From Sandarakinorhabdus glacialis (GTDB lineage Bacteria > Pseudomonadota > Alphaproteobacteria > Sphingomonadales > Sphingomonadaceae): DNA of 64,000 nt. Position 1 is the stretch's first letter. The number at the start of each line of letters is the position of its first letter. Location: NCBI RefSeq assembly GCF_014643455.1, contig NZ_BMJM01000002.1:406-64405 (forward strand). The letters are read 5' to 3'. This document shows, piece after piece, positions 1,370 to 28,488 of the stretch. The notes under the pieces were generated by a model. That model saw only the letters and a list, made by a program, of their open reading frames with translations. It was not told where the DNA came from and made no database searches. A program made the translations under genes and the position numbers.

Positions 1370-2176
1370 CTAGTCACCGAACTTTGTCCTTCCCGCCGCG
1401 GTCATCCCCGCGTCGATGACGAGGTCGTGGCAATTGACGTAGCGGCCCTCGTCACTGGCGAGATACAGCACGCCGTGGGCGATGTCGTGCGGCAGGCCGG
1501 CGCGACGCAGAGGCGTCGACGCCGCGAGGTTGCGGCGCAGCTTGTCCATGCTGGCATCGACATGCGCCGGGTCGAGGGTATTGGCGCGCGCCGAGCCGCC
1601 GAAGAAGATCGGCGTCGCGATACCGCCCGGCGAGACCGAATTCACCGTAACGCCGAACGGCGCGAGTTCCATGCCCGCGACCTTGGTCAGCTGCGTGACG
1701 CCCGCCTTGGCCATGCTGTAGAGATACTCGCCCATGTGGGTGCGCAGCGCGGCGACGCTCGAGTTGTTGATGATCGAACCGCTCCCCTGCGCCTTCATAA
1801 TCGGCGCTGCGTGCTTGATGCCGAACACCGCGCTGCCGAGCAGCAGGTCCATTGCGTAGTGGAAATCCTGCGGAGTGACCGTCTCAAGGCCGCCGGGCGT
1901 CGGTCCACCGGCATTGTTGAACAGGCAGTCGAGGCGGCCGAAGTCGGCGACCGCGGTGTCGATCGCCGCCTTGATGTCGGCCTCATGCCGCACATCGCCT
2001 TGAACGAAGCGGCTGGCGGCACCGAGACGCGCGGCGATCTCGGTACCCTTGACGGCATTGCGGCCCGTGAAGACGACGCGCGCTCCCTCGCGGACGAACA
2101 GTTCGACGGTCGCTTCGCCGATGCCGCTGGTGCCGCCGGTGATCACCGCGACTTTGCCCTTTAGGCGCTCGCTCAT
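1370..2176 (-). CDS. SDR-family NAD(P)-dependent oxidoreductase
   Basis: A 268-residue classical short-chain dehydrogenase. The N-terminus has the nucleotide-binding signature TGGTSGIGE near residue 14, then DV (near 62) and NNAGG (near 88). The catalytic triad is visible as SS at about 140 and YSMAK at about 153-157. It should oxidise or reduce a hydroxy/keto group on a cytoplasmic substrate. It is the last gene of a five-gene leftward operon (transporter, exported hydrolase, quinohemoprotein, acyl-CoA ligase, SDR), 15 bases after the ligase, with an AAGGAAA ribosome site. The context suggests a hydroxyacyl-CoA or ketone step; the substrate is unknown. Confidence 0.9.
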   Translation of the reverse strand: MSERLKGKVAVITGGTSGIGEATVELFVREGARVVFTGRNAVKGTEIAARLGAASRFVQGDVRHEADIKAAIDTAVADFGRLDCLFNNAGGPTPGGLETVTPQDFHYAMDLLLGSAVFGIKHAAPIMKAQGSGSIINNSSVAALRTHMGEYLYSMAKAGVTQLTKVAGMELAPFGVTVNSVSPGGIATPIFFGGSARANTLDPAHVDASMDKLRRNLAASTPLRRAGLPHDIAHGVLYLASDEGRYVNCHDLVIDAGMTAAGRTKFGD

Positions 2177-2191
2177 TGTCGTTTCCTTTGC

Positions 2192-3736
2192 TCAGACGGT
2201 TTGTTCGGCGGCGTAGCGGTCCTGCAACGCCCGCTTGACGATCTTGCCGATAGCGTTGCGCGGCAGTTCGTCGACGATCTGCACTGCGCTGATGCGCTGC
2301 ATCTTGCCGAGCCGCTGGTTGGCCCAACTGCGTAACGCCTCGGCTTCAAGCGGTGTGCGCATCGTCACGAACGCCACCGGCGTTTCGCCCCATTCACGCG
2401 ACGCGACGCCGACGACGGCGGACTCGATCACCGCTGGATGCTCGTTCAGCACGCTTTCCAGGTCGATCGGATACAGGTTGATGCCGCCCGAAATGATCAT
2501 GTCCTTGGCGCGTCCGATCAGCGTGAAAAAGCCTTGCGCATCGACGCTGGCGATGTCGCCGGTGCGGATGTAGCGAACGCCTGCGGGATCGAACCATTCA
2601 GCCTCGGCGGATTTTTCGGGCTGGTTGCGATAGCCGTTCATCATCGACCGCGAGCGACCGACGACTTCGCCTGGCACCCCTGGCGGTGCGGCGTTGCCGT
2701 CGGCGTCGATGACCAGCATCTCATGCCCGTCCATTGGCCGTCCGACGGTGTGCAGCTTGTCGGGGTGTTCGTGTGCGACGAGCATGCACGACCCGCCGCC
2801 CTCGGTCATGCCGTAATATTCGACCAGCCCGCCCGGCCAGCGCTGCAGCACCTCCGCCTTGAGTTCGGCCGAGAACGGCGCCGAGGTGGCGTATTTCATG
2901 CGGTAGCTCGACAGGTCGAAAGCATCGAAGTCAGAAACATCGAGGATGCGGCGGTACTGGACCGGGACCAGCATCGCGATATTGGCGTGGTGCCGCTCGC
3001 TGAGCACGAGGAACTCCCGTGCATCGAAGCGGGGCATCAGGACCATGGTACCGCCGCCCGCCAGTGTCGGCAGGAAACTGACCAGCGTCGTGTTCGAGTA
3101 AAGCGGCGTCGAGATCACCGCGACCACTCCGGGGCCGTAGCCGGGCGGATCACCAAGATGATTGTGCGGCCAACGCATCGCGAACGACTGAACGATGCCC
3201 TTGGGCGTGCCCGTCGTGCCGCTCGAATAGATGATGTTGAAGGCTTGCTCGGCGGTAACCTCGACGGGTGTCGGCGTAGTGCCGGGGGGCGCTAGCCAGG
3301 CGTCGAATGCCGCGCCGAGCGTGATGAATGCAAGCCCGTCGACGGCGGCAAGGTGCGCGGCGGCGGCAGCATCGACGAACAAATAGCTCGGCGTGCTGTC
3401 GGCGATCATCGCGGCGAGTTGCGCCGGGGTCGCTGACGGCGACAGCGGTGCGATTGCCGCACCGGCGCGCAGCGTGGCGATGAAGATCGCGGCGTAATCG
3501 ATCGAGCTCGCGGCGCAGATCGCGACGACCCCGCCGCTGACGACGCCGTCGCGTTGCAGCGACGCCGCGATACAGTCGGCGCGCGCGTTAAGCCCGGCAT
3601 AGTCGATCTGCTCGCCGTCGCAGATGATCGCGATGCGATCGGGCGCAGCGCGCGCCTGCAATGCGACCAGGTCAGCAAAATTTCCGCACGGGCGTGCGAC
3701 ATACGCGGCGATCTTGGTGTTCATATCATTGCTCAC
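2192..3736 (-). CDS. Class I adenylate-forming acyl-CoA ligase
   Basis: The 514-residue protein has all the core motifs of AMP-binding acyl-CoA synthetases: the P-loop YSSGTTGTPKG at residues 170-180, YYGMTEGGG in the middle, RTGDIASVDAQGFF, GRAKDMIISGGINLYP at the hinge, and the catalytic lysine near the C-terminus in RNAIGKIVK. It should activate a carboxylic acid to its CoA thioester in the cytoplasm. The start is a GTG at 3736-3734 whose GTGA overlaps the stop of the upstream quinohemoprotein, implying translational coupling. Its position after a periplasmic oxidase and hydrolase suggests it activates the acid products they make. The exact acid cannot be told from sequence. Confidence 0.9.
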   Translation of the reverse strand: MSNDMNTKIAAYVARPCGNFADLVALQARAAPDRIAIICDGEQIDYAGLNARADCIAASLQRDGVVSGGVVAICAASSIDYAAIFIATLRAGAAIAPLSPSATPAQLAAMIADSTPSYLFVDAAAAAHLAAVDGLAFITLGAAFDAWLAPPGTTPTPVEVTAEQAFNIIYSSGTTGTPKGIVQSFAMRWPHNHLGDPPGYGPGVVAVISTPLYSNTTLVSFLPTLAGGGTMVLMPRFDAREFLVLSERHHANIAMLVPVQYRRILDVSDFDAFDLSSYRMKYATSAPFSAELKAEVLQRWPGGLVEYYGMTEGGGSCMLVAHEHPDKLHTVGRPMDGHEMLVIDADGNAAPPGVPGEVVGRSRSMMNGYRNQPEKSAEAEWFDPAGVRYIRTGDIASVDAQGFFTLIGRAKDMIISGGINLYPIDLESVLNEHPAVIESAVVGVASREWGETPVAFVTMRTPLEAEALRSWANQRLGKMQRISAVQIVDELPRNAIGKIVKRALQDRYAAEQTV

Positions 3737-5646
3737 TTACCATCGACCGAAAAAGCCAGGAGCAGATTGCCCTCGGCGGCGCGCAGGTTGCGGCCGGCGT
3801 TTGCGCCTGACCGTCCGGCATAGCCCGTATGGACATAGACCATGCCGCCCGCCACCGTCGGGCCGGCACCGTCCATCACGCCGCCATGGGCCTCGCCGCC
3901 GTCAAGCGTCTTGAACAAGGTGCTGCCGGTATCGAAGTCCCAGACAATGCGCCCGGTCGCGGCATCGTGCCCGCGGAAATGCCCGTCATAGCTGCCTGCG
4001 AAGACGATGCCGGGGACCACCGTCACCGCCTGCGAGATTGCGCCGTGGCACCACCGCGTTTGCCACCGGCAGGTCGGCTTCAACGACGTCGGCATCGACC
4101 AGAGCGGCGTGCCGTCGGCGATCTTCACCGCGTAGAGGCCCGGCTTGCCCTGCGGGCCCGCAACGATATCGCTGATCCCAACGTACAGGCGGTCGCGGTC
4201 GGCGGCCATGCCGAATTCGACGCCGCCGAGCGCGCTGCCGGGGCTGAGGCGGAGCTCCCATATTTTTTTGCCGCGCCGCGCCGGGTCAAGCGCGAATACC
4301 GCGCCCGACTTCTGCCCGACCAGCAGCAACTGCCCGCCGGGACCATCGTGGAGGATCGTCGACGCGCCGATCGAGAAATCAGGGCCGACCGGCGACGGAC
4401 AGTTCGCGGGCCGCACCCGGCCGGGCCGCGGCCAGCAGCCGTCGATGTAGTTATCGTTCGGGGTCAACTGGTTGACCCAGCGCACTGCGCCGGTGTCGGC
4501 GTCGATCGCCATGACCGCGTCGCTGTTGTCGTAGGGTACGTCGGTGTACGAGTTCGAGGTCCCGACATAGACCAGCCGCCGCGCCGGATCGATCGTCGGC
4601 GCGCTCCAGATCGCGCCGCCCGACGGCCCCCACATCGGGCGTCCTGCCGAATTAGTCTTGAAGATGCGCGGCTCGACCTCGGTGGTGTAGCGTTTCCACA
4701 GCAGCCGCCCAGTCGCCGCATCGAGCGCGACGAGCGCCCCGCGGAAGCGGCAGCACTCCCACAGATCGTTCTGCGCGTAGGCCTCGTTACCCGACGAGAT
4801 CGGCACGTAGATCTTGCCGTCCCACACCGTCGGTGATCCGGTCGACTGCTGGCCTGACTGATCGTCGATGACGGTCTTCCACAGTTGCGCGCCGGTGTCG
4901 GCATCGAGCGCGACCGCGCTCTTGGTCCAGTCCGAAAAGAATACCGCGTGACGCGGCCCCGTTGTGCCGGGCAGCTTCATCACGGTGACGCTCGTCCTCG
5001 TCGCCGCCGCCGCGGCATGACGCCAATAGACGCAGCCAGTGCGCGCGTTGAGCGCATAGACCGCACCCGACATGCTGGTAACGAACAGCCGCTCGCCGAG
5101 CACGGTCGCTTGGCCGTTCTTGGCCCCGGGATAGCGGAATGCCCATTTAAGCTTGAGCCGGGGTACATCGCGCGGTCGCAGTTCGGGGCGGGGTTGAAAG
5201 CGCGCGTTGTCGGCGGCAACGCTCCAGCCGTTCCAGCCGCCTCGCTTGGCTGCATCGACCGGCGGGGGCGGCGCGGTGCAGCGCGGTGCATCGAGCGGCG
5301 TACCCGCGACGCCGTCACCCCAGATCCGCGCGGGGTCGATGTCGCGGATCGTGTCTGGGCTCGCCGGTTTGCCGAGGTAAATTGCTATTGCAGCGATGTC
5401 GGCGGGGCTCAAGCCCTCCGCCATCGGCATCATGACGCCCGTCCGTAGCGTAGCGACGATAAAGCCGGGCGGATTCTGCGACAGCAACGCGCGAGTCGGG
5501 GTGCGGTCGGTAGCGTTGTCGTGACATGCCGCGCAGCGGTCGGCGTAAAGTGCTGCGCCGTTCGAGGTGCCGGCGACTTGCGCGACGCCCGCGCTGGTCG
5601 TCAGCAGCATAGCTGCAATGATGGCCATTCGGCCCAGTAATTTCAC
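3733..5646 (-). CDS. PVA-dehydrogenase-like quinohemoprotein (N-terminal cytochrome c plus PQQ propeller)
   Basis: A 637-residue exported protein. Residues 1-22 form a signal peptide ending AGVAQ. The heme c site CAACH is at 38-42 with a later MMPMAEGLS axial-Met region, and it is followed by an eight-bladed PQQ propeller with repeated ALDADTG/ALDAATG and W motifs (for example KLKWAFRYPGAKNG, ALNARTGCVYWRH). An N-terminal cytochrome fused to a PQQ domain of this length is the architecture of polyvinyl-alcohol dehydrogenase (EC 1.1.2.6) of sphingomonads; most quinohemoprotein alcohol dehydrogenases carry the heme at the C-terminus. It would oxidise secondary alcohols in the periplasm. It lies 27 bases after a hydrolase resembling oxidized-PVA hydrolase, which supports the call. 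No PQQ synthesis genes are present in the window. Confidence 0.78.
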   Translation of the reverse strand: MKLLGRMAIIAAMLLTTSAGVAQVAGTSNGAALYADRCAACHDNATDRTPTRALLSQNPPGFIVATLRTGVMMPMAEGLSPADIAAIAIYLGKPASPDTIRDIDPARIWGDGVAGTPLDAPRCTAPPPPVDAAKRGGWNGWSVAADNARFQPRPELRPRDVPRLKLKWAFRYPGAKNGQATVLGERLFVTSMSGAVYALNARTGCVYWRHAAAAATRTSVTVMKLPGTTGPRHAVFFSDWTKSAVALDADTGAQLWKTVIDDQSGQQSTGSPTVWDGKIYVPISSGNEAYAQNDLWECCRFRGALVALDAATGRLLWKRYTTEVEPRIFKTNSAGRPMWGPSGGAIWSAPTIDPARRLVYVGTSNSYTDVPYDNSDAVMAIDADTGAVRWVNQLTPNDNYIDGCWPRPGRVRPANCPSPVGPDFSIGASTILHDGPGGQLLLVGQKSGAVFALDPARRGKKIWELRLSPGSALGGVEFGMAADRDRLYVGISDIVAGPQGKPGLYAVKIADGTPLWSMPTSLKPTCRWQTRWCHGAISQAVTVVPGIVFAGSYDGHFRGHDAATGRIVWDFDTGSTLFKTLDGGEAHGGVMDGAGPTVAGGMVYVHTGYAGRSGANAGRNLRAAEGNLLLAFSVDGK

Positions 5647-5673
5647 AAATCGTCTCCGGAATGCGCGTCGGCG

Positions 5674-6738
5674 CTAATAGTGATCAGTGTAGCTGCCGAC
5701 GCGGCACTGGTAGCCCGGTGGCGGGTTGGTCAGCGCGAAGTCGCGGGCCCGACTGCCCTTGGGGTGCGACGCGAGCGTCGCCAGCGCCCACGCATTGAAC
5801 GCCTGCGTATTGACCTGCGGCCACATATGCCCGTGCGTAGCGCTGCAGGCGACGTGGACGATTTTCGGTTGCGCGCTGAAGTAGTTCGCCCCCGCCTGCG
5901 TGCTAGGGCGATAGTCGGCGCATAGCACGGTGCCGCAGTTCCACAGGTCGCGCTCGCCGCCCCAAACGGTGATCACCACCATCGGGCCGAGTCTGGTGGG
6001 AAGCGGCTGCGGACCGACGCGGCCCTGGAAAATCTGCGTGGGCGCGGCAGCGACCGCGGCGCGTGCCTCGTTGAAGCGCAGCGCTGTATGGTCGTCGCGT
6101 CCGATGTACCACTCACCTGAGATCGGCAGGCCGCCGCCCCAGAAATCGGAGTCGAACAGCAGCGCACGGTTGGTCATCGTCCCGCCCGCCGAGATGCCGC
6201 CGATGAACAGGCGTTTGCGGTCAAGCGGCCATTTCGTCCCGACGCAGCGCACCATCGCTTTAAGAAAGCGTGCGTCGGGCCCGGCGTCGTTCGCCCATTT
6301 CGCACCCTCCGCCGACGCCGCGCGGCCATCGTTCCACGGGTTCCAGTTCCAGCCGTTGCGCCCGACCCCGATGCATGCCCCAGCCGACAGCTTTGGATCC
6401 TGGACCGCGCAGTCGCGCACCGGGCCGATCACCATGAAACCACGTTTCGCCATCTCCGCGTTGGCACCGCTGCGGGCGACATGCAGATTGGCGTCGGTCG
6501 ATTCCACAGTGCCCGTCAGCGGGACCCAGACGGGAACCCGGCGAGCGGCGTTCTCGGGCGGCACGACGACGAAGGCGCGGCGCTTGCCGTCGCTCGGAAA
6601 GTCGATGTTCAGTCCTGCCTTAACCGCGTAGCCGGGGGGGCAGACCCAATCGGCGCGGCGTGCGTCGGCGCGCCCCGCCCCCAATGCCGCAGTCATTGTC
6701 AGCAGCGCCACCAGCCACGGCCTGGTCCGTTCGATCAT
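5674..6738 (-). CDS. Exported serine hydrolase resembling oxidized-PVA hydrolase
   Basis: A 354-residue alpha/beta hydrolase with a signal peptide (WLVALLTMTAALGAGRADA). The nucleophile elbow GGISAGG lies in the middle, with TVWGGERDLWNC (likely acid region) and VACSATHGHMWPQ (likely catalytic His) towards the C-terminus. WNWNPWNDGRAA and YRPSTQAGANYFSAQP are, from memory, typical of oxidized polyvinyl alcohol hydrolase (beta-diketone hydrolase, EC 3.7.1.7), which is related to PHB depolymerases. I chose the ATG at 6738, whose first base is the last base of the upstream transporter stop (TGATG), over an upstream in-frame start that would sit inside that gene. Together with the adjacent PVADH-like gene it would cleave oxidised chains in the periplasm. 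A general esterase role is the alternative. Confidence 0.72.
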   Translation of the reverse strand: MIERTRPWLVALLTMTAALGAGRADARRADWVCPPGYAVKAGLNIDFPSDGKRRAFVVVPPENAARRVPVWVPLTGTVESTDANLHVARSGANAEMAKRGFMVIGPVRDCAVQDPKLSAGACIGVGRNGWNWNPWNDGRAASAEGAKWANDAGPDARFLKAMVRCVGTKWPLDRKRLFIGGISAGGTMTNRALLFDSDFWGGGLPISGEWYIGRDDHTALRFNEARAAVAAAPTQIFQGRVGPQPLPTRLGPMVVITVWGGERDLWNCGTVLCADYRPSTQAGANYFSAQPKIVHVACSATHGHMWPQVNTQAFNAWALATLASHPKGSRARDFALTNPPPGYQCRVGSYTDHY

Positions 6739-8237
6739 CAGGCTGCCGCCTCGGCAAGCGGCTTTTGCGCCGCGGCATCGCGCACTTTGCGAACGTTGTT
6801 TTCGTGTACCGCCCGGGTGATCGGGTAGGCGAGGATGCACAGCAGCGCCACGGCCTGCAGTCCGAAAATGATCAACGGCTCGATGATCGCAAGCTGGTTA
6901 AGCACATCGACCGGCACGCTGCCCCGTCTGGCCTGTTGCGGAAAATTGACGAAGCTGAGGATCAGCCCGCCGCCGAATACCCCAACCCCCGACATCGACT
7001 TGAGCATGAAGGTGTTCGTCGCGAAAAACAGCCCGGCATTATGCCGACCCGTCTTGGCGGCGCTGTCCTCGACGACATCGGCCATCATCGCGGCCCCCAT
7101 CACCCCGATCGAAATGACGATGATCGTTACGAAGAAGCTTTGGCCGAACAGCAGAGCGTAAAGAACCGGACTGCCGTTGGCTGGCAGCAGATCGAAGACA
7201 CGGCCGAGATACAGCAGCGGCGACAACGACATGTAGGTCGCCGCGAGGACCATATAAGCGCGCTTCTTGCCAAGCGCGCGGCCAATTCGCGGCGCGAAGA
7301 ACAGCGCCACGAACACCGATGCAAAATTGCCGACCATCAGGAAGGAGATCTGGTCGCCAGTCAGTTCCCAGAAATAGATCCTGAAATACGTCAGCACCGA
7401 TGCCGCGATTCCCGCCGCCGCAAAGCTGAATACGCCTGCAAGGAACAGCACCCCGAAGGCGCGGTTGGACAGCGTCTCCCAAAGCTCGCGCACGGAGCGC
7501 CGCAGCACAAACCGGCGTCGCGGCGGCGGTTTGGGGAACGCTGCAGCGCGGCGCTGCGTCCCCAGTGACGACACCATGATCGCCGCAAACATCAGCAGCG
7601 ACGCGACGAGCCCGTAGTTGGCGTAGCCCTGCAGGTTGAGTTGTCCCGATGGATCGTCTGCCGATGGTCGCAGAAAGACGCTGAATGCCACGACCCCCAT
7701 TGCCAGACCGCCGATCCAGCCGAAGAAATAGCGGTAGCTCAGGAAGCTGGTACGCTCGTCATAGTCGTGGGTCATGTCGGCGACGAGCGCGCTGCTCGGA
7801 ATCTCATAAAAGGTGATGCACAGCCGGATGACGATCGAAATGCCGATCAGATAAGTCAGCAGAGCGGGTTCCCCGAGCCCGCTTGGCGGGTTCCACAGGA
7901 AATAATAGGACACCGCGATCGGCACGGCCGCTGCGTACATGAAAGGATGGCGGCGTCCGAGGCGCGAGCGGAAGTTGTCCGACCAGTTTCCCACCACCGG
8001 ATCGACGCACGCATCGACGACAAGCGCGATCATGATCGCGAGGCCAACCGACTGCGCCGAAAGTCCGAGAGCCTGATTATAGAACAGCAGCAGCAAGACG
8101 CTGAAGCCATTGTCTTTGACACCATAGGCGATCGAGCCGACGCCGTAGGCGAGTTTGTCGAACAGTGTCGCGCGACCGATCGCGGCAGCGACGGCCATCG
8201 GCGTCGCGCCACTCGAAAGCGATGCCGCGCCGCTCAT
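6738..8237 (-). CDS. GPH-type MFS symporter
   Basis: A 499-residue integral membrane protein with about 12 hydrophobic segments. The N-terminal KLAYGVGSIAYGVKDNGF, then VDACVDPVVGNWSDNFRSR and LGRRHPFMYAAAVP, are signatures of the glycoside-pentoside-hexuronide:cation symporter family (MFS_2). These proteins import sugars, glucuronides or other polar solutes across the inner membrane. It heads the leftward operon and overlaps the next gene by one base, so it probably imports the product of the periplasmic hydrolase and dehydrogenase. It is a close paralogue of the transporter at 12533. The substrate is not predictable. Confidence 0.88.
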   Translation of the reverse strand: MSGAASLSSGATPMAVAAAIGRATLFDKLAYGVGSIAYGVKDNGFSVLLLLFYNQALGLSAQSVGLAIMIALVVDACVDPVVGNWSDNFRSRLGRRHPFMYAAAVPIAVSYYFLWNPPSGLGEPALLTYLIGISIVIRLCITFYEIPSSALVADMTHDYDERTSFLSYRYFFGWIGGLAMGVVAFSVFLRPSADDPSGQLNLQGYANYGLVASLLMFAAIMVSSLGTQRRAAAFPKPPPRRRFVLRRSVRELWETLSNRAFGVLFLAGVFSFAAAGIAASVLTYFRIYFWELTGDQISFLMVGNFASVFVALFFAPRIGRALGKKRAYMVLAATYMSLSPLLYLGRVFDLLPANGSPVLYALLFGQSFFVTIIVISIGVMGAAMMADVVEDSAAKTGRHNAGLFFATNTFMLKSMSGVGVFGGGLILSFVNFPQQARRGSVPVDVLNQLAIIEPLIIFGLQAVALLCILAYPITRAVHENNVRKVRDAAAQKPLAEAAA

Positions 8238-8489: not shown

Positions 8490-9533
8490 ATGATCGAGGA
8501 TATTCTCGAGCCCACATTGCCGATCGTCGATCCGCACCACCATCTTTGGGATTTTCAGCCGGTGCTCGGCATGATCCCCGAGACGGCGCATGCGTTCGGC
8601 GCGATCGTAAAAAACTCGCCACGCTATCTGCTCGACGAGCTACGCGCCGACACGCTCAGCGGCCACAACATCATCGGCACGGTGTTCGTCGAGTGCGGCG
8701 CCTTTTACCGCGCCGATGCGCCGACGCATCTCAAACCGATCGGAGAGGTCGAATTCGTCAATGGCATCGCGGCGCAGAGCGCCAGCGGTATCTATGGCCA
8801 GCTGCGGGCTTGCGCGGGCATCGTCGGTCATGCCGACCTGACCCGCGGCGACGCTGCAGCGATGGTACTCGAGTCAGAGATCGCCGCGGGTAACGGTCGT
8901 TTCCGGGGCATCCGGCACATCGGTGCGAACGACCCCGATCCGTTGGTGCTCGGGCCGCTCGCACATGCACCGGCCGGGCTCTACGGCGACCCAGTCTTTC
9001 GCGAAGGCTTCGCGCAGCTTGGTCGGCTCGGCCTGTCGTTCGACGCCTGGGTCCTCGAGCCCCAAATTGGCGAAGTGGCCGATCTCGCACGCGCGTTTCC
9101 TGATACCGCAATCGTCCTTGACCATGTCGGTACTCCGCTCGGACTAAGCAGCTATGCCGGACGCCATGCCGAGCGGTTTGACATTTGGCGCGACGCGATC
9201 CGCGATCTCGCCAGTTGCCCGAATGTCATGGTCAAGCTGGGCGGGTTGGCGATGCCTTTCTGCGCGTTTCCAGGGCTTGGGCCCGAGGCCCGACCGGCAT
9301 CGGCGGTCCTTGCCGACCTGTGGCGGCCGTATATCGAAACCTGCATCGAAGCCTTTGGTGCGGATCGCGCCATGTTCGAAAGCAACTATCCGGTCGACAA
9401 ATGGGGTGTCGACTATGCGGTGTTGTGGAACAGCTTCAAGCGCCTTGCGGCGGGCGCGTCCACCGGCGAGCGACGCGATTTGTTCGCGGGCAGCGCCGCC
9501 CGGTTCTACCGTCTTGACGGGCTGGCGATCTGA
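8490..9533 (+). CDS. Amidohydrolase-2 family metal-dependent hydrolase
   Basis: A 347-residue TIM-barrel hydrolase of the COG3618 type. The metal-binding start VDPHHHLWDF is at residues 10-19, VFVECGAFY in strand 2, IRHIGANDPDP in the middle, VLDHVGTPLG near 210, and MFESNYPVDKW near the end carries the last conserved Asp region. Relatives hydrolyse lactones, 2-pyrone-4,6-dicarboxylate or decarboxylate aromatic acids. It is transcribed divergently from the transporter operon across about 250 bases, so both may share control. A GGGAG ribosome site precedes the ATG. The context suggests hydrolysis of a cyclic ester or lactone intermediate. Confidence 0.87.
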   Translation: MIEDILEPTLPIVDPHHHLWDFQPVLGMIPETAHAFGAIVKNSPRYLLDELRADTLSGHNIIGTVFVECGAFYRADAPTHLKPIGEVEFVNGIAAQSASGIYGQLRACAGIVGHADLTRGDAAAMVLESEIAAGNGRFRGIRHIGANDPDPLVLGPLAHAPAGLYGDPVFREGFAQLGRLGLSFDAWVLEPQIGEVADLARAFPDTAIVLDHVGTPLGLSSYAGRHAERFDIWRDAIRDLASCPNVMVKLGGLAMPFCAFPGLGPEARPASAVLADLWRPYIETCIEAFGADRAMFESNYPVDKWGVDYAVLWNSFKRLAAGASTGERRDLFAGSAARFYRLDGLAI

Positions 9534-9594
9534 TCGGTCGATAAGGCCGAGTGCCGGGGTAGCTTCGAACGCTTCCGCACTCGAAGCACAAATT

Positions 9595-9637
9595 CAGGCC
9601 CTGCTCCGGTCGATCTGATCGACTCGAGCAAGGCCTG
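9595..9637. terminator. Hairpin between convergent genes
   Basis: CAGGCC-C-TGCTC-CG-GTCGATC on the left pairs with GATCGAC-TC-GAGCA-A-GGCCTG on the right, 18 pairs with two short internal mismatches and a 1-base loop. It lies between the convergent amidohydrolase and TonB receptor genes. There is no T run, so it may act as a shared hairpin rather than a classical Rho-independent terminator. Confidence 0.55.
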
Positions 9638-9648
9638 GTTACACCGTG

Positions 9649-12132
9649 CTAGAAGTTCGCTCCAACGCGCATCGTCACGCGGCGGGGCAACTGGAGAGCA
9701 CCGATGCGCGTGCCGATCTGGGCAGGAGCTTCGAACTCGAAGAAGTAGTGTTGCACGTTGGTGACGTTCTCGAGCAGCACGCCCGCATACCAGCCCTTGT
9801 CCTTCCGCCCGAGCGTCGCGCCGACGTCGATCGTCGTGGTCGACGGCTGGTCGACGTCGGGATCGTTGCCGCCACGGCTCGTTCCGCGATAGGTCAGGCT
9901 GGCATAGCTATCTAGTTCGAGTGAGTCGGTGATCGGCAGCGTGTAGTTTACACCCGCCTGGCCATTGAAGCGCGGACCGAAGCGCGCGCCCGACAGATCC
10001 TGAACGAAACCATTACCGAAGCGCTTGCAGCCAGGCTGCCCGAAATACTGCTGGGTGATGTTGCAGGCGACGTTGGTGTTCTCGATGAACTTCGAGCGCA
10101 GCAACAGGAAGCCGCCCGACAGGCTCAGTCGGCTCGATGCTCGAATGTTGATGTCGCCCTCGAGTCCGAGCGAGCGCGCCTTGCCCGCATTGCGCAGGTC
10201 GAAGCTCTCGCCGGTATAGACCGAGGTCTGGAGATCCTTGAAAGTCTGATAGAAGGCGGCGAGATTGACGCGGACCCGGCGGTCGAACAGGACCAGCTTG
10301 GTACCGAGTTCGAATCCGGTCGTCTTTTCGGCGCCAAACTCCAGATCGGCCTCGGTCGGGCTGACCGATCCCGAGTTGAAGCCGCCGCTGCGAACGCCCT
10401 TGGCGACGCTGGCATAGATCAGTCCGCCACCTTCGAGATCGAAGGCAACGCGCGCTTCGGGAGTGAAATTGGTCTCACTTCGCTTGGCGCTATTGGCGTG
10501 ACGCTGTCCGACCAGACCCGGCGCGAACGCGCGAGCGGTGGCAAGCAGGGCGTTGTCGGCGGGATTGTTGGGATCGAGCGGGATCTTAGTGCCAAAGCGC
10601 GCATAGTCGAGGAAGTCGTCGATCTTCTTCTTCTCGTAGCTGTACCGCCCACCAACCGTCACGTGCAGCCGGTCGGTCAAGTTGTAGGTGCCCTGACCGA
10701 ACACCGACGCCGAAGTCGTGTCCTGCGCAAAGCGCGCCAGTGTCGCATAGCGGCGATCGACGTTGCCGACGGATCCGAAAAATAGGTTGATGTCGACATC
10801 GGTCTGACGGTCGACGAAGAACTCCTGACGCAGCAGGTACAGGCCGACGAGGTAGTCGAACTTACCGCCCGTCGCCGATGTCAGCCGCAATTCCTCGCTA
10901 TACTGCTTATAGTCCTGGGTGATGGGCTGATACAGAAACGTCGTAGGGTTCCAGTCGACGTCGCGGCCATCGTCCGAATCGTAGGCCGAATAGCCGGTCA
11001 CCGAGGTCAGCGTGACCGGCCCCAAATCGTAGTTGATCTCGAGCGCGACATTCTTCGAATGAACCTGTGCGGTCTCACGCTGCTTCGAGAGCGTATAGTT
11101 CTTGTCGAATTCGAACTTGGGATCGTAAGCGCGATAGGTCGATAGCCGTGCTGCGGCACCGACATCCGAGAAGGCGGCAGCGATCGGACGCGGTGCCTCG
11201 CCCTGGGCGAACGGCACCAATGGGGTCGTGCTTGCCGCCTGCGAGACCGTCGTCAGCAGCGGACGACCGACCGCGAGGCCGCTAACCTGCGATACTTGAA
11301 ACGCGCGACCAGTGCGCTTGTAATCCGAATACTCGCCCTTCAGGCGAACTGTCAGCTGATCGGTCGGCTTCCACAGCGCGGTCCCGCGGACGATGACATC
11401 GCGCTGCTGCTCTTCGCGGTCGCCGGTCAGGGTGTTGCGGAAAAAGCCTTGCTCGTCGGAAACGCGCACCGCCACGCGGGTCGCCAGCGTGTCGGTTATC
11501 GGTACGTTGAGGACCCCCTCATAGGCATAGCGATCGGAGCGCGGCGTCCATTCGAGGCGATTGTTGAACTCCAGGCGGTCAACCGGCTGGCCGGTTGTAA
11601 TCAGCACTGCACCCGCGCTGGTGTTCTTGCCAAATAGCGCGGCTTGCGGCCCACGCAGCACTTCGACCCGGCTGACATCGAGGAAGGTGCCGCGAAACTG
11701 ACGCTCGCGGCCGGCGTAGATGCCATCAATGAACAGGCCGACTGCGGGGTCGAAGCCGAAGTTGAGCCCTGCCGAGAAACCGCGGATCGACACGCCGGTC
11801 TGCTCGCCGCCCTCGGCAATCGACAGACTAGGCGTCTGGCGCGACAATTCACTCAGGTTGGTAATGTTGAGGTTCTTGATCGTCTCGCCGGTGACGACGC
11901 TGACAGCAACCGGAACCGACTCGAGCGGCGAGGCGCGCTTGGTGGCGGTGACAATGATCTCGTCGGCCAGCCTTCCCTGCGCGGCAGGCGAAGCATTCGG
12001 TGCCGCGACTACGGCGCCGCTTTGGGCTTCTTGCCCCTTGGTCGCATCGGTTTCAGTGGCAATTTGCGCCATCGCCGCGATGGGCCAGACTATGCCGGTG
12101 CTCAACGCAAGCGCGCATGCGAAATTCTTCAA
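9649..12132 (-). CDS. TonB-dependent outer-membrane receptor
   Basis: An 827-residue TonB receptor. It has a signal peptide (CALALSTGIVWPIAAMAQ), a plug domain with ESVPVAVSVVTGETIKN and RVEVLRGPQAALFGKNTSAG, and a long beta-barrel ending RRVTMRVGANF with the expected terminal Phe. It imports a ligand across the outer membrane using TonB energy; in sphingomonads such receptors often serve organic substrates rather than iron. The start is TTG at 12132, 7 bases after GGGGGG. It is divergent from a GPH transporter, so the pair could carry the locus substrate through both membranes. The ligand is unknown. Confidence 0.93.
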   Translation of the reverse strand: MKNFACALALSTGIVWPIAAMAQIATETDATKGQEAQSGAVVAAPNASPAAQGRLADEIIVTATKRASPLESVPVAVSVVTGETIKNLNITNLSELSRQTPSLSIAEGGEQTGVSIRGFSAGLNFGFDPAVGLFIDGIYAGRERQFRGTFLDVSRVEVLRGPQAALFGKNTSAGAVLITTGQPVDRLEFNNRLEWTPRSDRYAYEGVLNVPITDTLATRVAVRVSDEQGFFRNTLTGDREEQQRDVIVRGTALWKPTDQLTVRLKGEYSDYKRTGRAFQVSQVSGLAVGRPLLTTVSQAASTTPLVPFAQGEAPRPIAAAFSDVGAAARLSTYRAYDPKFEFDKNYTLSKQRETAQVHSKNVALEINYDLGPVTLTSVTGYSAYDSDDGRDVDWNPTTFLYQPITQDYKQYSEELRLTSATGGKFDYLVGLYLLRQEFFVDRQTDVDINLFFGSVGNVDRRYATLARFAQDTTSASVFGQGTYNLTDRLHVTVGGRYSYEKKKIDDFLDYARFGTKIPLDPNNPADNALLATARAFAPGLVGQRHANSAKRSETNFTPEARVAFDLEGGGLIYASVAKGVRSGGFNSGSVSPTEADLEFGAEKTTGFELGTKLVLFDRRVRVNLAAFYQTFKDLQTSVYTGESFDLRNAGKARSLGLEGDINIRASSRLSLSGGFLLLRSKFIENTNVACNITQQYFGQPGCKRFGNGFVQDLSGARFGPRFNGQAGVNYTLPITDSLELDSYASLTYRGTSRGGNDPDVDQPSTTTIDVGATLGRKDKGWYAGVLLENVTNVQHYFFEFEAPAQIGTRIGALQLPRRVTMRVGANF

Positions 12133-12529
12133 GGTAGCCCCCCAGTCATGTCCCGAACTTGCTCTCGACGACCCTACGGATCGACGATGCTTCGAGTATC
12201 ATGATCTGTGCATACCCTATTTCCTAAGTTTGAAAAGTATATTTCGCGTCGGGCAAAAACTTATCGGTCACTTCAGCTACCAGAGTGGCCATTTTGCCAG
12301 GACGACGAGTGGCGTTGCCCCGCCGGTAATCGGAAAAACAACTTTAGAATCAACAATTTCTGTTTGATTTTGCGCGATTTAGACGTGCCCTCGGGCCTGC
12401 GAAAATCGGAATCCCCCGGTCCGTCCGCGAGCACGCGAATCGTGATGGCCAAACACCGTTAAATGACATACTAATACTCTTGAAGCGGTGTCGAGCGTGA
12501 AACCAATCACGCCATGCCGGGGGGAGTGT
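12133..12529. promoter_or_regulatory. Divergent promoter region, TonB receptor / GPH transporter
   Basis: About 400 non-coding bases that are clearly more AT-rich than the flanking genes, as expected for two back-to-back promoters. The segment at 12463-12482 (CATACTAATACTCTTGAAG) loosely resembles the motif found at 21719 and 27484, but the alignment needs a one-base shift. I see no gene or convincing hairpin here. Confidence 0.5.
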
Positions 12530-12532
12530 ATG

Positions 12533-14038
12533 ATGGCGAACCAGCGCGAAACTGCGTCCGACGTCGGTGATGCGCCGAACGTCGCAAAAGGCCGCGGCAG
12601 CTTTCGGATCAAATTCTTCTACGGCGTTGGTTCAATCGCGTTTGGCGTCAAGGACAACGGCTTCAGCGTCCTGCTGCTGCTGTTCTACAATCAGGTCATG
12701 GGGCTCGACGCGCGGCTGGCGGGACTGGCGATCATGATCGCGCTGATCCTCGATGCGATCGCCGATCCGATGATCGGGTACTGGTCGGACAATCTGTCAT
12801 CGCGCTGGGGTCGGCGTCATCCCTTCATGTACGGGGCCGCCATCCCGGTGGCGCTGGGCTATCTATTCCTGTTTTCGCCGCCGAGTGGATTGTCGCAGGA
12901 GCTGCTGTTCGCCTATCTGCTCGGCGTCTCGATCGCGGTGCGCCTGTTCATCGCGGTCTATGAAATACCCAGCGCAGCGCTGGTCGCCGAACTGACCGAG
13001 AGTTACGACGAGCGGACGAGCTATCTGAGCTTCCGCTATTTCTTCGGTTGGGTCGGTGGTCTGACCATGTCGATGCTGGCTTTTGGCGTTTTTCTGCAAT
13101 CGACTCCGGATTATCCGGTGGGCCAGCTGAATCCCGCCGGCTATTCGAGCTACGGCGTCGCGGCGTCGATCATCATGTTCGTGGCGATCATCGCATCGTC
13201 GCTTGGAACGCATTCGGCGATTCCATGGCTGAAGTCGCCGCAACCCCGATCCACGACTTCGGTTGGCGAGGTGGTGCGCGAGATCATCCAGACGCTGTCG
13301 AGCCGGTCGGCGCTGTCGGTACTGATCGCCGGGATGCTGATCGCCCTTTCCGCCGGGCTGACCTTTGCGCTGCTGACCTATTTCTACACCTATTTCTGGC
13401 GCCTCCAGCCGACCGAAATCTCCATCCTGATTTCGGGCAGCTTTATTTCGGCATTCCTCGCGTTGACCCTGACGCCGGTATTGTCGCGCCGCTTCGACAA
13501 GCGCGGCGCGGCGATCGGCGTCGCGGTGGTGATGATCGCGCTGATCCCGATCCCCTATTTTGCGCGTCTCGCCGGCTATTTCCCTGAGAACGGATCGCCT
13601 GCACTGCTGCCGACGCTGATGATCTTCAGCGTCACCATCACCACCCTGACCATCATCTGGTCGATCTTGATCGCGTCGATGCTCGCCGATGTCGTCGAGG
13701 ACAACGAGGTGCGGACGGGCAAGCGCGCCGAAGGCGTCTTCTTCGCGGCCAACACCTTCGTCGCCAAGTGCGTGTCGGGGCTGGGCGTCTTCGGCTCCGC
13801 AGCGATCATCACACTCACGGGCTTCCCCCAGAACGCGCGGCCCGGCGACGTCAGCGCCGACACGTTGCGCGATCTGGCATTCAGCTATGTCGGAGCGGTA
13901 GTAGCGCTCAATGTCTTGGCGATCGTCTGTGTGCTGACTTATCGGATCAGCCGCAGCGTTCATCAGGCAAATCTGGATAAGCTCGCGGCGCTGGCCGACA
14001 AGGCGCTGGTGCCGTCGCCGGTCCTGTCCGCGAATTGA
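12533..14038 (+). CDS. GPH-type MFS symporter, second copy
   Basis: A 501-residue membrane protein of the MFS_2/GPH family. FFYGVGSIAFGVKDNGFSV, LDAIADPMIGYWSDNLSSR and WGRRHPFMYGAAIP match the paralogue at 6738. There are two adjacent ATGs at 12530 and 12533; I use the second because it sits 7 bases after GGGGGAG. A GTG further upstream at 12488 is in frame but lacks a ribosome site. It begins a rightward operon with the acyl-CoA carboxylase and CoA-transferase, so its cargo probably feeds CoA-dependent catabolism. Confidence 0.88.
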   Translation: MANQRETASDVGDAPNVAKGRGSFRIKFFYGVGSIAFGVKDNGFSVLLLLFYNQVMGLDARLAGLAIMIALILDAIADPMIGYWSDNLSSRWGRRHPFMYGAAIPVALGYLFLFSPPSGLSQELLFAYLLGVSIAVRLFIAVYEIPSAALVAELTESYDERTSYLSFRYFFGWVGGLTMSMLAFGVFLQSTPDYPVGQLNPAGYSSYGVAASIIMFVAIIASSLGTHSAIPWLKSPQPRSTTSVGEVVREIIQTLSSRSALSVLIAGMLIALSAGLTFALLTYFYTYFWRLQPTEISILISGSFISAFLALTLTPVLSRRFDKRGAAIGVAVVMIALIPIPYFARLAGYFPENGSPALLPTLMIFSVTITTLTIIWSILIASMLADVVEDNEVRTGKRAEGVFFAANTFVAKCVSGLGVFGSAAIITLTGFPQNARPGDVSADTLRDLAFSYVGAVVALNVLAIVCVLTYRISRSVHQANLDKLAALADKALVPSPVLSAN

Positions 14039-14043
14039 TTCGA

Positions 14044-17000
14044 ATGATCCGCAAGCTGCTTATCGCCAACCGCGGCGAGATCGCCATTCGCATCGCGCGA
14101 ACCGCCGCCGAGCGCGGTCTGGCGACGATCGTCGTCTATGCCGAGGATGACGCGGCGTCGCTCCATACCCGCGCGGCGGACCTTGCCGTGGCGCTGCCCG
14201 GCAGCGGTGTCGCGGCGTATCTCGATACCGCGGCGCTGATCGCGGTCGCGCGGGCAGAGGGTTGCGACGCGGTTCACCCCGGCTATGGTTTCCTAAGCGA
14301 GAACGCCGACTTCGCGCAGGCGTGCGGCGATGCGGGTCTGGTCTTCGTCGGTCCGACCCCGGCGACGCTGCGGCTGTTCGGCGACAAGGCGCAGGCGCGC
14401 GCTCTGGCAACACGCGAGAGAATTCCGATCCTGCCGGGCATCAGCGCCGCGGTGACTTTGACCGAGGCTACTGCCTTCATGACGGGTCTGGGGGCCGGCG
14501 GTGCCGTCATGCTGAAGGCGATCCACGGCGGCGGCGGGCGCGGCATGCGGCCCGTCGACCGGGTCGAGGACCTTGAAGCTGCCTATGCGCGCTGCAGTTC
14601 GGAGGCGCTCCAGGCCTTCGGTTCGGGGGCGCTTTACGTCGAGGAGCTGTTTCCGCGCGCGCGCCACATCGAGGTGCAGATTGTCGGGGACGGAGCTGGC
14701 GGCATCGCCCACGTTTGGGACCGCGAGTGCAGTCTGCAGCGCCAGCGCCAGAAACTCGTCGAGATCGCGCCTGCCTTCGATCTCGACGAGGAGTTGCGCG
14801 CGGCGATGTTGGCCGCCGCGGTGCGGCTGGGCGCTGCAGCGGACTATCGCGGTGTCGGTACCATTGAATTTCTCGTCGATGCGCGCCCCGGTGTCGCACC
14901 GCGCTTCGCCTTCATCGAGGCGAATGCGCGGCTGCAGGTCGAGCATACGGTGACCGAGGCGGTGACTGGCCTCGATCTGGTGGCGGTCCAGCTGGCAGTC
15001 GCCGACGGAGCTACCCTCGCACAGCTCGGCCTGTGCCAGAACCAGATCGCGGCACCGCGCGGCACGGCGATCCAGCTCCGCGTCAACCTCGAGACGATGA
15101 TGACCGACGGGTCGATCAGGCCCGGTGGCGGCACGCTCGCGGTCTACGAGCCGCCGTCGGGCCCGGGCGTGCGCGTCGATGGCTTCGGCTATGCCGGATA
15201 TACGACCAGCGCGCGCTACGATTCGCTGCTGGCGAAGGTCATCGTCCATGCCGACGGGTTGGCCGCCGCCGTCCGTAAGGCGCGTCGTGCGCTCAGCGAG
15301 TTCAAGATCGTCGGCGCGGCGACCAACATCGACCTGTTGCAGGCGTTGCTGAAGAGCCCGGCGCTGACCCCCGAGGCGCTGCACACGCGCTATGTTGAGG
15401 AGCATCTGGCGGACCTCCTTGCGACCGCAGGCGAGACCGCGCGCTTCTTCGAACCCGCCACCCGCGAGGTCCGGCGCGCAGGCACCGCTGTCGATGCGGG
15501 CGATCCGCTCGCGGTACTCGGACTGCGCGGTCAGGCGGGCGCACGCGACGCCGCCCCGGTACGGCCCGCGCTAGGCGGACCGCCGGAAACGGTCGCGGTC
15601 ATGACGCCGATGCAGGGCGCCATCATCGAGCTGTCGGTCGTCGTCGGCGATGTCGTGCGCGCGGGCCAGCCGGTTGCGGTGATGGAGGCGCTCAAGATGG
15701 AGCACGTCGTCGCCGCGGGCCACGCCGGCATCGTCCGCGAAATCGTGCTGCGCGTCGGCGAGACAGTGTTCGGTGATACGCCGATCCTGTTCATCGAGGC
15801 GAGCGATGTCGCGGGCGATACCTGGACATCGAATGCGGAGGTCGATCTCGACGCCATCCGGCCCGACCTGGCCGAAGTCCTCCGCTTCCAGGCGCTGACC
15901 GCCGATGCCGCGCGCGCGCAGGCCACCGCGAAGCGCCACGCAGCGGGCAAACGAACCGCGCGCGAGAACATCGACGACCTGTGCGATGCGGGTTCGTTCA
16001 TCGAATACGGGCCACTGATCACCGCGACCCGGCGCTACGATGACAGCCTCGACGACATCGCCGCGCGGGTGGTCAAAACGGCTGCGGACGGCATGGTGAT
16101 GGGGATCGGCCGCGTCAACGGCGACCTCGTCGGCCGCGACAAAGCGCGCTGCATCGCCATGTCGTACGATTATTCCGTGCTTGCGGGCACGCAAGGCTTC
16201 AAGAATCACCAGAAGACCGACCGTATGCTCGGCGTCGCCGAACGCTACCGCCTGCCCGTCGTGTTGTTCACCGAAGGCGGCGGCGGCCGCACCGGCGGCG
16301 CACCCAATCCCGAGGCACGCGGCGGCATGCTCCAGGTCAAGACGTGGCGCGAACTCGGCAAGCTGTCGGGGCTGGTCCCGCTGGTCGGCGTCAATTCGGG
16401 CTATTGCTTTGCCGGCAACGTCGTCATGCTCGGCGCGTGCGATGTCATCATCGCGACGAAGGATTCGAGCCTCGGCATCGGCGGCCCGGCGGTTATCGAA
16501 GGCGGCGGCCTCGGGGCTTATGCGCCCGACGAGGTCGGTCCGATCGACATTCAGGAGCCCAACGGCGTCATCGACATATTGGTCGAGGACGAAGCCGAGG
16601 CGACTGCAACGGCCAAGCGCTATCTGGCGTTTTTCCAGGGACCGACCGCCAGCTGGTCCGCCAACGACCAGCGGTCGCTGCGCCATGCGGTGCCCGAGAA
16701 CCGGCGCGCAATGTTCGATATTCGCAAGGTGATCGAGACAATTGGTGATGCGGGGTCGATGCTCGAACTGCGGCCGCGCTTCGGTCCGGCGATGGTCACC
16801 GCGTTCTTCCGCATCGAGGGGCGCACCGTCGGCGTCATCGCCAACAACTCCAACTCACCCACCGGCGGCGCGATCGAGTCCGACGGTGCCGACAAGGCGT
16901 CGCGCTTCATGCAATTGTGCGATGCCTTCGACATTCCGATCCTGTCGCTGATCGACACGCCGGGCAACATGGTCGGCCCCGAAGCCGAGAAGACCGCGCT

Positions 17001-17430
17001 GATCCGTCACTGCGGCCGTATGTATGTCGCGGGCGCGAACATCACCGTGCCTTTCTTCGCTGTCGTGCTGCGCAAGTCGTACGGCCTCGGCGCGCTGGCG
17101 ATGTCGGCGGGCAGCTTCGACCAGACCTTCTTCACCGTGTCGTGGCCGACGGGCGAGTTCGCCGGCATGGGGCTGGAGGCAGCGGTCAAGCTCGGACGCC
17201 GCGCCGAACTGCTGGCGATCGAAAATCTGGTCGAACGCACCGCGCGCTACGAGAAACTCGTCGCCGACGCCTATGCTTGGTCGCGCGCGCTGAACTCGGC
17301 CACCGTCGGCGATTTCGACGACGTGATCGACCCGGCGGAGACACGCAAATGGCTGGTCATGGGGCTCGACTCGGTGCCGCCGCCGCCGCGCCGCGAGGGC
17401 AAGAAGCGCGCGTGGATCGATACCTGGTGA
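14044..17430 (+). CDS. Single-chain biotin-dependent acyl-CoA carboxylase (LCC-like)
   Basis: A 1129-residue fusion of all carboxylase parts. The biotin carboxylase comes first (MIRKLLIANRGEIAIRIART; GGGGRGMRP; FIEANARLQVEHTVTE). A linker and the biotin carrier follow, with AVMEALKMEHVV giving biotinyl-Lys551. The carboxyltransferase halves occupy residues about 600-1129 (YDYSVLAGTQGFKNHQKTDR, EGGGGRTGG, IANNSNSPTGGAIESDGADK, DTPGNMVGPEAE). Most acyl-CoA carboxylases split these over two or more chains; a single polypeptide is the plan of the long-chain acyl-CoA carboxylases described from Mycobacterium and Rhodopseudomonas. A TTG at 14035 would overlap the previous stop, but the ATG at 14044 fits the family start. 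It carboxylates an acyl-CoA using ATP and bicarbonate. Confidence 0.9.
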   Translation: MIRKLLIANRGEIAIRIARTAAERGLATIVVYAEDDAASLHTRAADLAVALPGSGVAAYLDTAALIAVARAEGCDAVHPGYGFLSENADFAQACGDAGLVFVGPTPATLRLFGDKAQARALATRERIPILPGISAAVTLTEATAFMTGLGAGGAVMLKAIHGGGGRGMRPVDRVEDLEAAYARCSSEALQAFGSGALYVEELFPRARHIEVQIVGDGAGGIAHVWDRECSLQRQRQKLVEIAPAFDLDEELRAAMLAAAVRLGAAADYRGVGTIEFLVDARPGVAPRFAFIEANARLQVEHTVTEAVTGLDLVAVQLAVADGATLAQLGLCQNQIAAPRGTAIQLRVNLETMMTDGSIRPGGGTLAVYEPPSGPGVRVDGFGYAGYTTSARYDSLLAKVIVHADGLAAAVRKARRALSEFKIVGAATNIDLLQALLKSPALTPEALHTRYVEEHLADLLATAGETARFFEPATREVRRAGTAVDAGDPLAVLGLRGQAGARDAAPVRPALGGPPETVAVMTPMQGAIIELSVVVGDVVRAGQPVAVMEALKMEHVVAAGHAGIVREIVLRVGETVFGDTPILFIEASDVAGDTWTSNAEVDLDAIRPDLAEVLRFQALTADAARAQATAKRHAAGKRTARENIDDLCDAGSFIEYGPLITATRRYDDSLDDIAARVVKTAADGMVMGIGRVNGDLVGRDKARCIAMSYDYSVLAGTQGFKNHQKTDRMLGVAERYRLPVVLFTEGGGGRTGGAPNPEARGGMLQVKTWRELGKLSGLVPLVGVNSGYCFAGNVVMLGACDVIIATKDSSLGIGGPAVIEGGGLGAYAPDEVGPIDIQEPNGVIDILVEDEAEATATAKRYLAFFQGPTASWSANDQRSLRHAVPENRRAMFDIRKVIETIGDAGSMLELRPRFGPAMVTAFFRIEGRTVGVIANNSNSPTGGAIESDGADKASRFMQLCDAFDIPILSLIDTPGNMVGPEAEKTALIRHCGRMYVAGANITVPFFAVVLRKSYGLGALAMSAGSFDQTFFTVSWPTGEFAGMGLEAAVKLGRRAELLAIENLVERTARYEKLVADAYAWSRALNSATVGDFDDVIDPAETRKWLVMGLDSVPPPPRREGKKRAWIDTW

Positions 17431-19658: not shown

Positions 19659-19672
19659 GCGGCGCCAACCCC

Positions 19673-20443: not shown

Positions 20444-20464
20444 CGCCGATTCTTTCCGCTTAGT

Positions 20465-21667: not shown

Positions 21668-21718
21668 TTTATGTTCTCCCCTGCCAGCCGTCTTGACATC
21701 GGCGTAATGACAAAATAG

Positions 21719-21774
21719 CCATACTATCGTTCTCAATTGGCGTAAAGCGCGTTGTAGCGCGTTGCGTACGCCAA
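21719..21774. promoter_or_regulatory. Divergent regulatory region with inverted repeat and shared motif
   Basis: Between the thiolase (leftward) and the unknown protein at 21813 (rightward) lies CCATACTATCGTTCTCAA (21719-21736), which matches 16 of 18 bases of a reversed copy at 27503-27486. It is followed by TTGGCGTA (21737-21744) and its exact reverse complement TACGCCAA (21767-21774), enclosing two copies of GCGCGTTG. The arrangement looks like operator sequence; the binding protein is unknown, although the double-TetR protein at 29773 is a candidate. Confidence 0.5.
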
Positions 21775-28457: not shown

Positions 28458-28488
28458 CGCCTGTTGCGACAATAGCAAGGTTCCGCAC

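Follow-up and report, generated by a model that had tools for sequence, protein, structure and literature searches.

A pva-type operon with an acyl-CoA ligase and a short-chain dehydrogenase/reductase in Sandarakinorhabdus glacialis

Introduction

The published three-gene pva operon for polyvinyl alcohol (PVA) encodes a PVA dehydrogenase (PVADH), a cytochrome c and an oxidised-PVA hydrolase (OPH), and the accounts that describe the chemistry of these three proteins pass the resulting oligomers on to a secondary alcohol dehydrogenase (PMC9602593; PMC12243470). For Sphingopyxis sp. 113P3, a megaplasmid location of the pva genes has been cited and the deposited operon is reported to lie on the chromosome (PMC4611681). 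The title of a paper in a reference list points to PVA-raised expression in this strain. Here we describe a pva-type operon of Sandarakinorhabdus glacialis, found on the minus strand at positions 1370-8237 of a 64,000-nucleotide stretch of DNA (hereafter the window; positions 406-64405 of contig NZ_BMJM01000002.1) from a genome of 3.3 Mb. Five tightly packed genes, running from 8237 down to 1370, encode in order a GPH symporter, OPH, a PVADH-type quinohaemoprotein, an AMP-forming acyl-coenzyme A (acyl-CoA) ligase and a short-chain dehydrogenase/reductase (SDR). We conclude that the operon probably serves to oxidise, cut and assimilate a compound or polymer whose carbon chain contains 1,3-diol units.

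Results and Discussion

The OPH and PVADH pair

Comparison of the hydrolase with PDB returned four sequences named "Oxidized polyvinyl alcohol hydrolase" at E values of 4e-152 to 7e-164 (3wla, 6.8e-164; 3wl6, 8.1e-153), against 0.036 for the next-best match, so that its identity as an OPH is not due to chance. The alignments cover residues 62-388 or 54-387 of the 388-aa open reading frame (ORF) originally listed, which is near full length. That ORF begins at 6840, inside the GPH gene; the more likely start is the ATG of position 6738, which shares 1 base with the GPH stop and gives a protein of 354 aa (5674-6738). In an alignment of 22 sequences, identity is 69.4% between the window OPH and 3wla and 65.3% between it and 3wl6; the two crystallised OPHs share 65.5% with each other, and by this measure the window OPH falls within their divergence. 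We assign 3wla to strain 113P3 and 3wl6 to Pseudomonas sp. VM15C, organisms that the PDB match does not name. Ser183 (6190-6192), Asp264 (5947-5949) and His304 (5827-5829) are invariant in all 22 sequences, including two remote fusion domains. Ser183 aligns with the serine that is replaced by alanine in 3wl8, and the conservation and order of Asp264 and His304 indicate that they likely complete the triad with it. The protein also carries the motifs GGISAGG, WNWNPW and STQAGANYFSAQP, together with a hydrophobic N-terminus that reads as an export signal, and it has no Pfam match at E ≤ 0.001.

The adjacent quinohaemoprotein (3733-5646; 637 aa) has the build of a PVADH: an N-terminal haem c domain (PF13442 at residues 28-91) and a pyrroloquinoline quinone (PQQ) propeller (PF13360 and PF01011), with all three models above cut-off. 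It was compared with other such proteins in a set of 31, made up of 12 PVADHs adjoining an OPH and 19 paralogues from the genomes that carry an OPH locus (the carriers). The set was drawn from PVADH-like matches with a locus; 11 of the 30 loci were left out at >56% identity, these being the OPH-linked copies already in the set. The 12 OPH-linked PVADHs form one side of a branch with 100/99 support, and the PVADH of a lichen metagenome-assembled genome (MAG; locus L013) is sister to that of the window (99/99). The CxxCH haem motif (residues 38-42; 5521-5535) is kept in 12 of 12 OPH-linked PVADHs, and the adjacent Cys298-Cys299 (4750-4755) in at least 97% of the 31 proteins. Adjacent cysteines occur at the PQQ site of related dehydrogenases. 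In the plasmid collection, the window protein is most similar to the quinoprotein that adjoins OPH in Sphingopyxis sp. 113P3 (68% identity across 95% of the length), and the others among the matches listed reach at most 36.6%. The link to characterised PVADHs goes by way of S. granuli L009, where OPH and 3wla share 99.4% identity. PQQ ethanol and alcohol dehydrogenases in PDB (6zcv, 1kv9 and others) align with the propeller over residues ~131-400; unlike in these proteins, the haem domain of the window PVADH is N-terminal. From their N-termini, both OPH and PVADH are predicted to be exported.

That the pair consists of a polyhydroxybutyrate (PHB) depolymerase-type esterase, or an esterase of another kind, and an ordinary alcohol dehydrogenase is highly improbable. 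The only NCBIfam matches of OPH are indeed to polyhydroxyalkanoate (PHA)/PHB depolymerase models, and the propeller does match alcohol dehydrogenase models. The depolymerase matches, however, score 49 and 30 bits against cut-offs of 150 and 108, compared with 549 bits for OPH to 3wla, and the quinoprotein's best PDB match (a PQQ ethanol/alcohol dehydrogenase) reaches 61 bits, whereas its identity to the OPH-adjacent protein of 113P3 is 68%. The initial annotation, made from the window alone, had proposed an exported pair of PVADH-like and OPH-like enzymes, and both the PDB matches of OPH and the OPH-linked clade of PVADH bear this out. As far as the comparisons were run, the hydrolase did not group with unrelated esterases, nor the quinoprotein with non-PVADH enzymes; the best characterised matches of the hydrolase are OPHs, with the serine kept and the other two triad residues likely from conservation.

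Further PVADH-like proteins were seen both in other carriers and in the window. Three carriers (G150, G160 and G162, with loci L011, L022 and L024) each encode 7 or 8 PVADH-like proteins at E ≤ 1e-30, some of them in tandem, which hints at a broader range of polyol substrates. A second PQQ-type protein, ~27% identical to the window PVADH and with a cytochrome domain just below cut-off, is encoded at 25258-27402 of the window.

Operon organization and comparison with described systems

The first gene encodes a GPH-type symporter (MFS_2; 6738-8237; 499 aa), which matches PF13347 at 295 bits and TIGR00792 at 153 bits, short of the cut-off of 231 for the latter. Downstream of OPH and PVADH lie the AMP-forming acyl-CoA ligase (2192-3736; 514 aa; PF00501, 225 bits; PF13193, 68 bits), whose gene overlaps that of PVADH by 4 bases, and the SDR (1370-2176; 268 aa; PF13561, 185 bits), a proposed 3-hydroxyacyl-CoA dehydrogenase. 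Successive genes are spaced by -1, +27, -4 and +15 bases, the 27 bases separating the adjacent OPH and PVADH genes, and these short gaps and overlaps suggest a single transcript. All five frames are open, and key residues are retained. Codon usage of four of the five genes lies inside the range of 12 other window ORFs (a set of 13, one removed for its length), with GPH slightly below it.

A genome scan yielded 16 loci with close OPH relatives, and the 113P3 plasmid locus and the window bring the number compared to 18. The figure of 16 is a lower bound, as the scan covers close OPH relatives and loci with PVADH alone are invisible to it. Neighbour matches were counted from 38% identity upwards, cytochrome c excepted. 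PVADH adjoins OPH in 12 of the 18 loci. Among them, a cytochrome c gene stands within the unit in three (L009 and L012, where it follows PVADH directly, and the 113P3 plasmid copy, L025, where one MFS gene intervenes), and a GPH gene lies near OPH in four (the window; L012, 59%; L013, 65%; L019, 48%).

The adjacent OPH and PVADH genes stand in the same order as in the pva operon of Sphingopyxis sp. 113P3 and S. granuli. The 113P3 plasmid copy (NZ_CP009453.1) is 63-64% identical to the window in OPH and 68-69% in PVADH, and it and both S. granuli copies encode a ligase (68-70%) and an SDR (73%) after the cytochrome c gene. Unlike these counterparts, the window unit has no cytochrome c gene, and its first gene encodes a GPH symporter, in contrast to the unrelated MFS_3-type gene of the 113P3 plasmid copy. 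With the published three-gene operon the window shares PVADH and OPH side by side; because none of its five genes encodes a cytochrome c, we regard it as a pva-type variant and not as that operon. The closest layout is that of the lichen Sphingomonadaceae MAG L013, which has the identical five genes in the identical order (GPH 65%, OPH 69%, PVADH 71%, ligase 68% and SDR 70%) and differs in a weak cytochrome c match (36%) ~3.6 kb beyond PVADH. The contrast with the described operon that the initial annotation had drawn thus holds for the missing cytochrome c gene and fails for the ligase and SDR, which the 113P3 plasmid copy, both S. granuli copies and L013 also possess. We confirm that the five-gene pva-type operon is real, its gene order, families, conserved residues and co-occurrence being established at the level of sequence.

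The OPH of the 113P3 plasmid copy is 77.8% identical to 3wla and is annotated as a hypothetical protein. Its likely catalytic histidine is preceded by QYGH, as opposed to THGH in most others. Since the deposited operon of this strain is reported on the chromosome (PMC4611681), the plasmid copy would be a second one.

The loci of Steroidobacter and Povalibacter uvarum (L020, L021 and L066), where OPH is near the crystallised 3wl6 (92 and 91%), share with the window the OPH-PVADH pair, an SDR (53-55%), a ligase and nearby genes for CoA-linked dehydrogenation. They differ in having a quinoprotein-OPH fusion, a 3-hydroxyacyl-CoA dehydrogenase, another type of ligase and no GPH match. The fusion frames are 947 aa in a Steroidobacter MAG (L020, 1877-4720) and 1000 aa in P. 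uvarum (L066, 10243-13245), and in both a quinoprotein propeller is fused with an OPH domain that shares ~40% identity with the window OPH (the Pfam run covered the L020 frame). Near both lie a ligase with an ACAS N-terminus, a 3-hydroxyacyl-CoA dehydrogenase and an SDR, as well as a separate OPH-PVADH pair. A 3-hydroxyacyl-CoA dehydrogenase of the same cluster as that of the fusion loci also lies near S. granuli L009. The fusion loci therefore link quinoprotein oxidation, C-C cleavage and 3-hydroxyacyl-CoA chemistry.

The ligase and the SDR

In 8 of the 12 OPH-PVADH loci, the window included, PVADH has an SDR of at least 68% identity no more than 3.4 kb away (68-77% at the seven others); at L020 and L021 the SDR is further off, and L010 is cut by the contig end. 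The ligase is present in 6 of the 12, again with the window (60-68% in the five others), and a fragment of it in L016. At E ≤ 1e-60 the SDR was matched in one of 148 relatives, its own genome, in a search that scored the best 17 of ~33-64 candidates per genome and could miss weaker copies; as no other relative matched, the SDR looks dedicated to the operon. In a ligase tree built with five matches from relatives and without the L016 fragment, the five sphingomonad operon ligases group together (96/96). This intracellular arm is conserved, and it is left out of the published three-gene account. A ligase and an SDR beside pva genes are not described in the titles and abstracts among the matches listed, in a search to which subscription journals lay outside, and a search for natural-substrate literature with acyl-CoA terms found no paper.

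Proposed pathway

We propose that the PVADH-type quinohaemoprotein, using PQQ from outside, would act in the periplasm and oxidise secondary alcohols to β-diketone (or β-hydroxyketone) units, and that its own N-terminal haem would relay the electrons to a general cytochrome c. OPH would then cleave the diketone hydrolytically at a C-C bond, so that one new end is a carboxylic acid and the other a methyl ketone. For these two steps we rely on the established chemistry of the families. The fragments would be taken up, perhaps by the GPH symporter. Inside the cell, the ligase would convert the acid end to a CoA thioester, and the SDR would oxidise the 3-hydroxyacyl-CoA to a 3-ketoacyl-CoA. Cleavage by a thiolase would then yield acetyl-CoA together with the next 3-hydroxyacyl-CoA. 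Because a PVA-type acid is already a 3-hydroxyacid, an acyl-CoA dehydrogenase and an enoyl hydratase would be unneeded. The published route uses a secondary alcohol dehydrogenase, and the window SDR could therefore play that part instead. A thiolase is encoded at 20465-21736 of the window and a 3-hydroxyacyl-CoA dehydrogenase within 28348-29769, both outside the operon. As for the electron acceptor, a general cytochrome may take this role, since the genome has three other stretches that are similar to the first 60 residues of the 113P3 cytochrome c, the best with an E value of 2.4e-9. The substrate, the direction of transport and the roles of the ligase, SDR and thiolase are those that we infer. 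As an idea, the uptake and assimilation of either PVA or a natural polymer of 1,3-diols, put forward in the initial annotation, holds.

Several observations weigh against this pathway. The window OPH is not firmly placed in the OPH tree. In the stretch compared, L015 encodes OPH and PVADH but lacks both SDR and ligase, and L017 has no ligase. The SDR scores under every NCBIfam cut-off shown, so that its proposed substrate is tentative. The ligase is from a common family, matched at E ≤ 1e-100 in 56 of the 148 relatives, its own genome included (up to 10 candidates per genome), and the ligase of the Phenylobacterium locus L019 falls among those of the relatives, outside the sphingomonad operon group; operon ligases have perhaps been drawn from this family and recruited more than once. 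Searches for pqqC and pqqE recognised no PQQ synthesis gene in the genome. Finally, OPH occurs without an adjacent PVADH in 6 of the 18 loci (L011, L014, L018, L022, L023 and L024).

These six loci bear also on another explanation, which we consider rather unlikely, namely that the substrates of the pair are small natural 1,3-diols or β-diketones, such as wax diketones or polyketides, and not a polymer. In three of the six (L011, L014 and L023) OPH is followed directly by members of one gene family; the member tested, that of L023, is an SDR according to Pfam. By their titles, the carriers include records of root, lichen and forest-soil type. The nearest characterised relatives, however, were found as polymer-degrading enzymes, and the apparent export of both enzymes argues in the same direction.

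PQQ supply

No match to pqqC was found in the genome of the window, a lack that the initial annotation did not mention. Likewise, none was found in 14 of the 15 other carriers, many of which are MAGs and whose completeness is not stated; the remaining one, a Bradyrhizobium, matches at 360 bits. The pqqC profile had no match in any of 14 control genomes. For pqqE, only sub-cut-off matches were obtained, both in the window's genome and in 14 of 14 controls, which makes this search little informative. The lack of a pqqC match in this genome and in nearly all other carriers indicates that PQQ is probably scavenged. None of the 16 carriers has a PqqU-type receptor above the strict cut-off of 1200 bits and all 16 have lower matches, the best in the window's genome at 62 bits; one of the 14 control genomes is above the cut-off. 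Two PqqU pieces of 489 and 121 bits in G156, the carrier of L018, may be a split true receptor. In the window's genome, PQQ may enter by some other route.

Want of PQQ could also mean that the operon is silent or non-functional in this genome, which we consider improbable. The missing pqqC would fit, as would the broken transposase pieces directly beyond the SDR. A parallel exists in S. granuli TFA, which, according to PMC7250832, has pva genes and no PQQ synthesis genes and did not grow on PVA even with Pseudomonas putida KT2440; the authors of that paper could not rule out that the genes are silent. Yet the window operon has five open frames with key residues kept and, in four of the five genes, codon usage within the window range, and lack of pqqC is the rule among carriers. 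Partner-supplied PQQ is, moreover, cited as a growth factor for Pseudomonas sp. VM15C in PMC7250832.

Age and probable transfer of the operon

Ten orthologous PVADHs, from sphingomonads, Phenylobacterium, Bradyrhizobium and Steroidobacteraceae, are 59-72% identical to that of the window. Synthetic PVA is about a century old, a span too short for such divergence; the operon would therefore predate PVA, and the comparison suggests that the gene set long antedates the plastic. In its own group, OPH was matched at E ≤ 0.001 in 2 of the 148 relatives, namely its own genome and, as a partial match of 35%, G034. A piece of an IS4/5-type transposase lies at 3-272 of the window, and 333-1135, from the reading of the frames, is apparently a frame-broken second transposase between the contig end and the operon. 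The near confinement of OPH to its own genome and the adjoining transposase pieces make it probable that the operon was acquired by transfer.

The same features could be read as a recent adaptation to synthetic PVA, used as a carbon source as in Sphingopyxis sp. 113P3. The nearest described systems come from PVA degraders, the operon is accessory in its group (OPH in 1 of 148, apart from the weak partial match) with transposase pieces at its side, and the Povalibacter carrier was presumably named for PVA degradation. We nevertheless consider this reading unlikely, given the divergence of the ten PVADH orthologues and the failure of S. granuli TFA, despite its pva genes, to grow on PVA alone or with P. 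putida KT2440 (PMC7250832). Taken together, the deep divergence and the TFA result favour an older natural 1,3-diol substrate, and PVA is no more likely to be the substrate than a natural 1,3-diol or diketone. Tentatively, and as a possibility more than an expectation, the operon could represent a pathway of old origin, spread by transfer, that serves a natural 1,3-polyol or β-diketone and did not arise in response to plastic, and whose intracellular ligase and dedicated SDR arm would remove two carbons per round from 3,5,7-polyhydroxy acids by dehydrogenation and thiolysis alone, as polyketide synthesis in reverse.

Flanking genes

Another catabolic cluster occupies 8490-21736 of the window. 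It encodes an amidohydrolase (8490), a TonB receptor (9649), a second GPH symporter (12488; 49% identical to the first), a biotin carboxylase/carboxyltransferase fusion (14035), a CoA-transferase III (within 16917-19658), an SDR and the thiolase. We rejected this cluster as a part of the pathway because its amidohydrolase is common in relatives (23 of 60 at E ≤ 1e-40, own genome included) and OPH is not (2 of 148). The TonB receptor is 49% identical to one in L020 and may be linked to the pathway.

Conclusions

In the searchable literature, no answer was found as to the fate of PVA fragments after OPH or the substrates of these enzymes before PVA. The ligase and SDR of the S. glacialis operon provide two candidate enzymes for assimilating PVA fragments after OPH cleavage. 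The distribution of pqqC suggests that carriers of the OPH-PVADH pair usually depend on the PQQ of their neighbours, a dependence that bears on the persistence of PVA and on how such strains are assayed.

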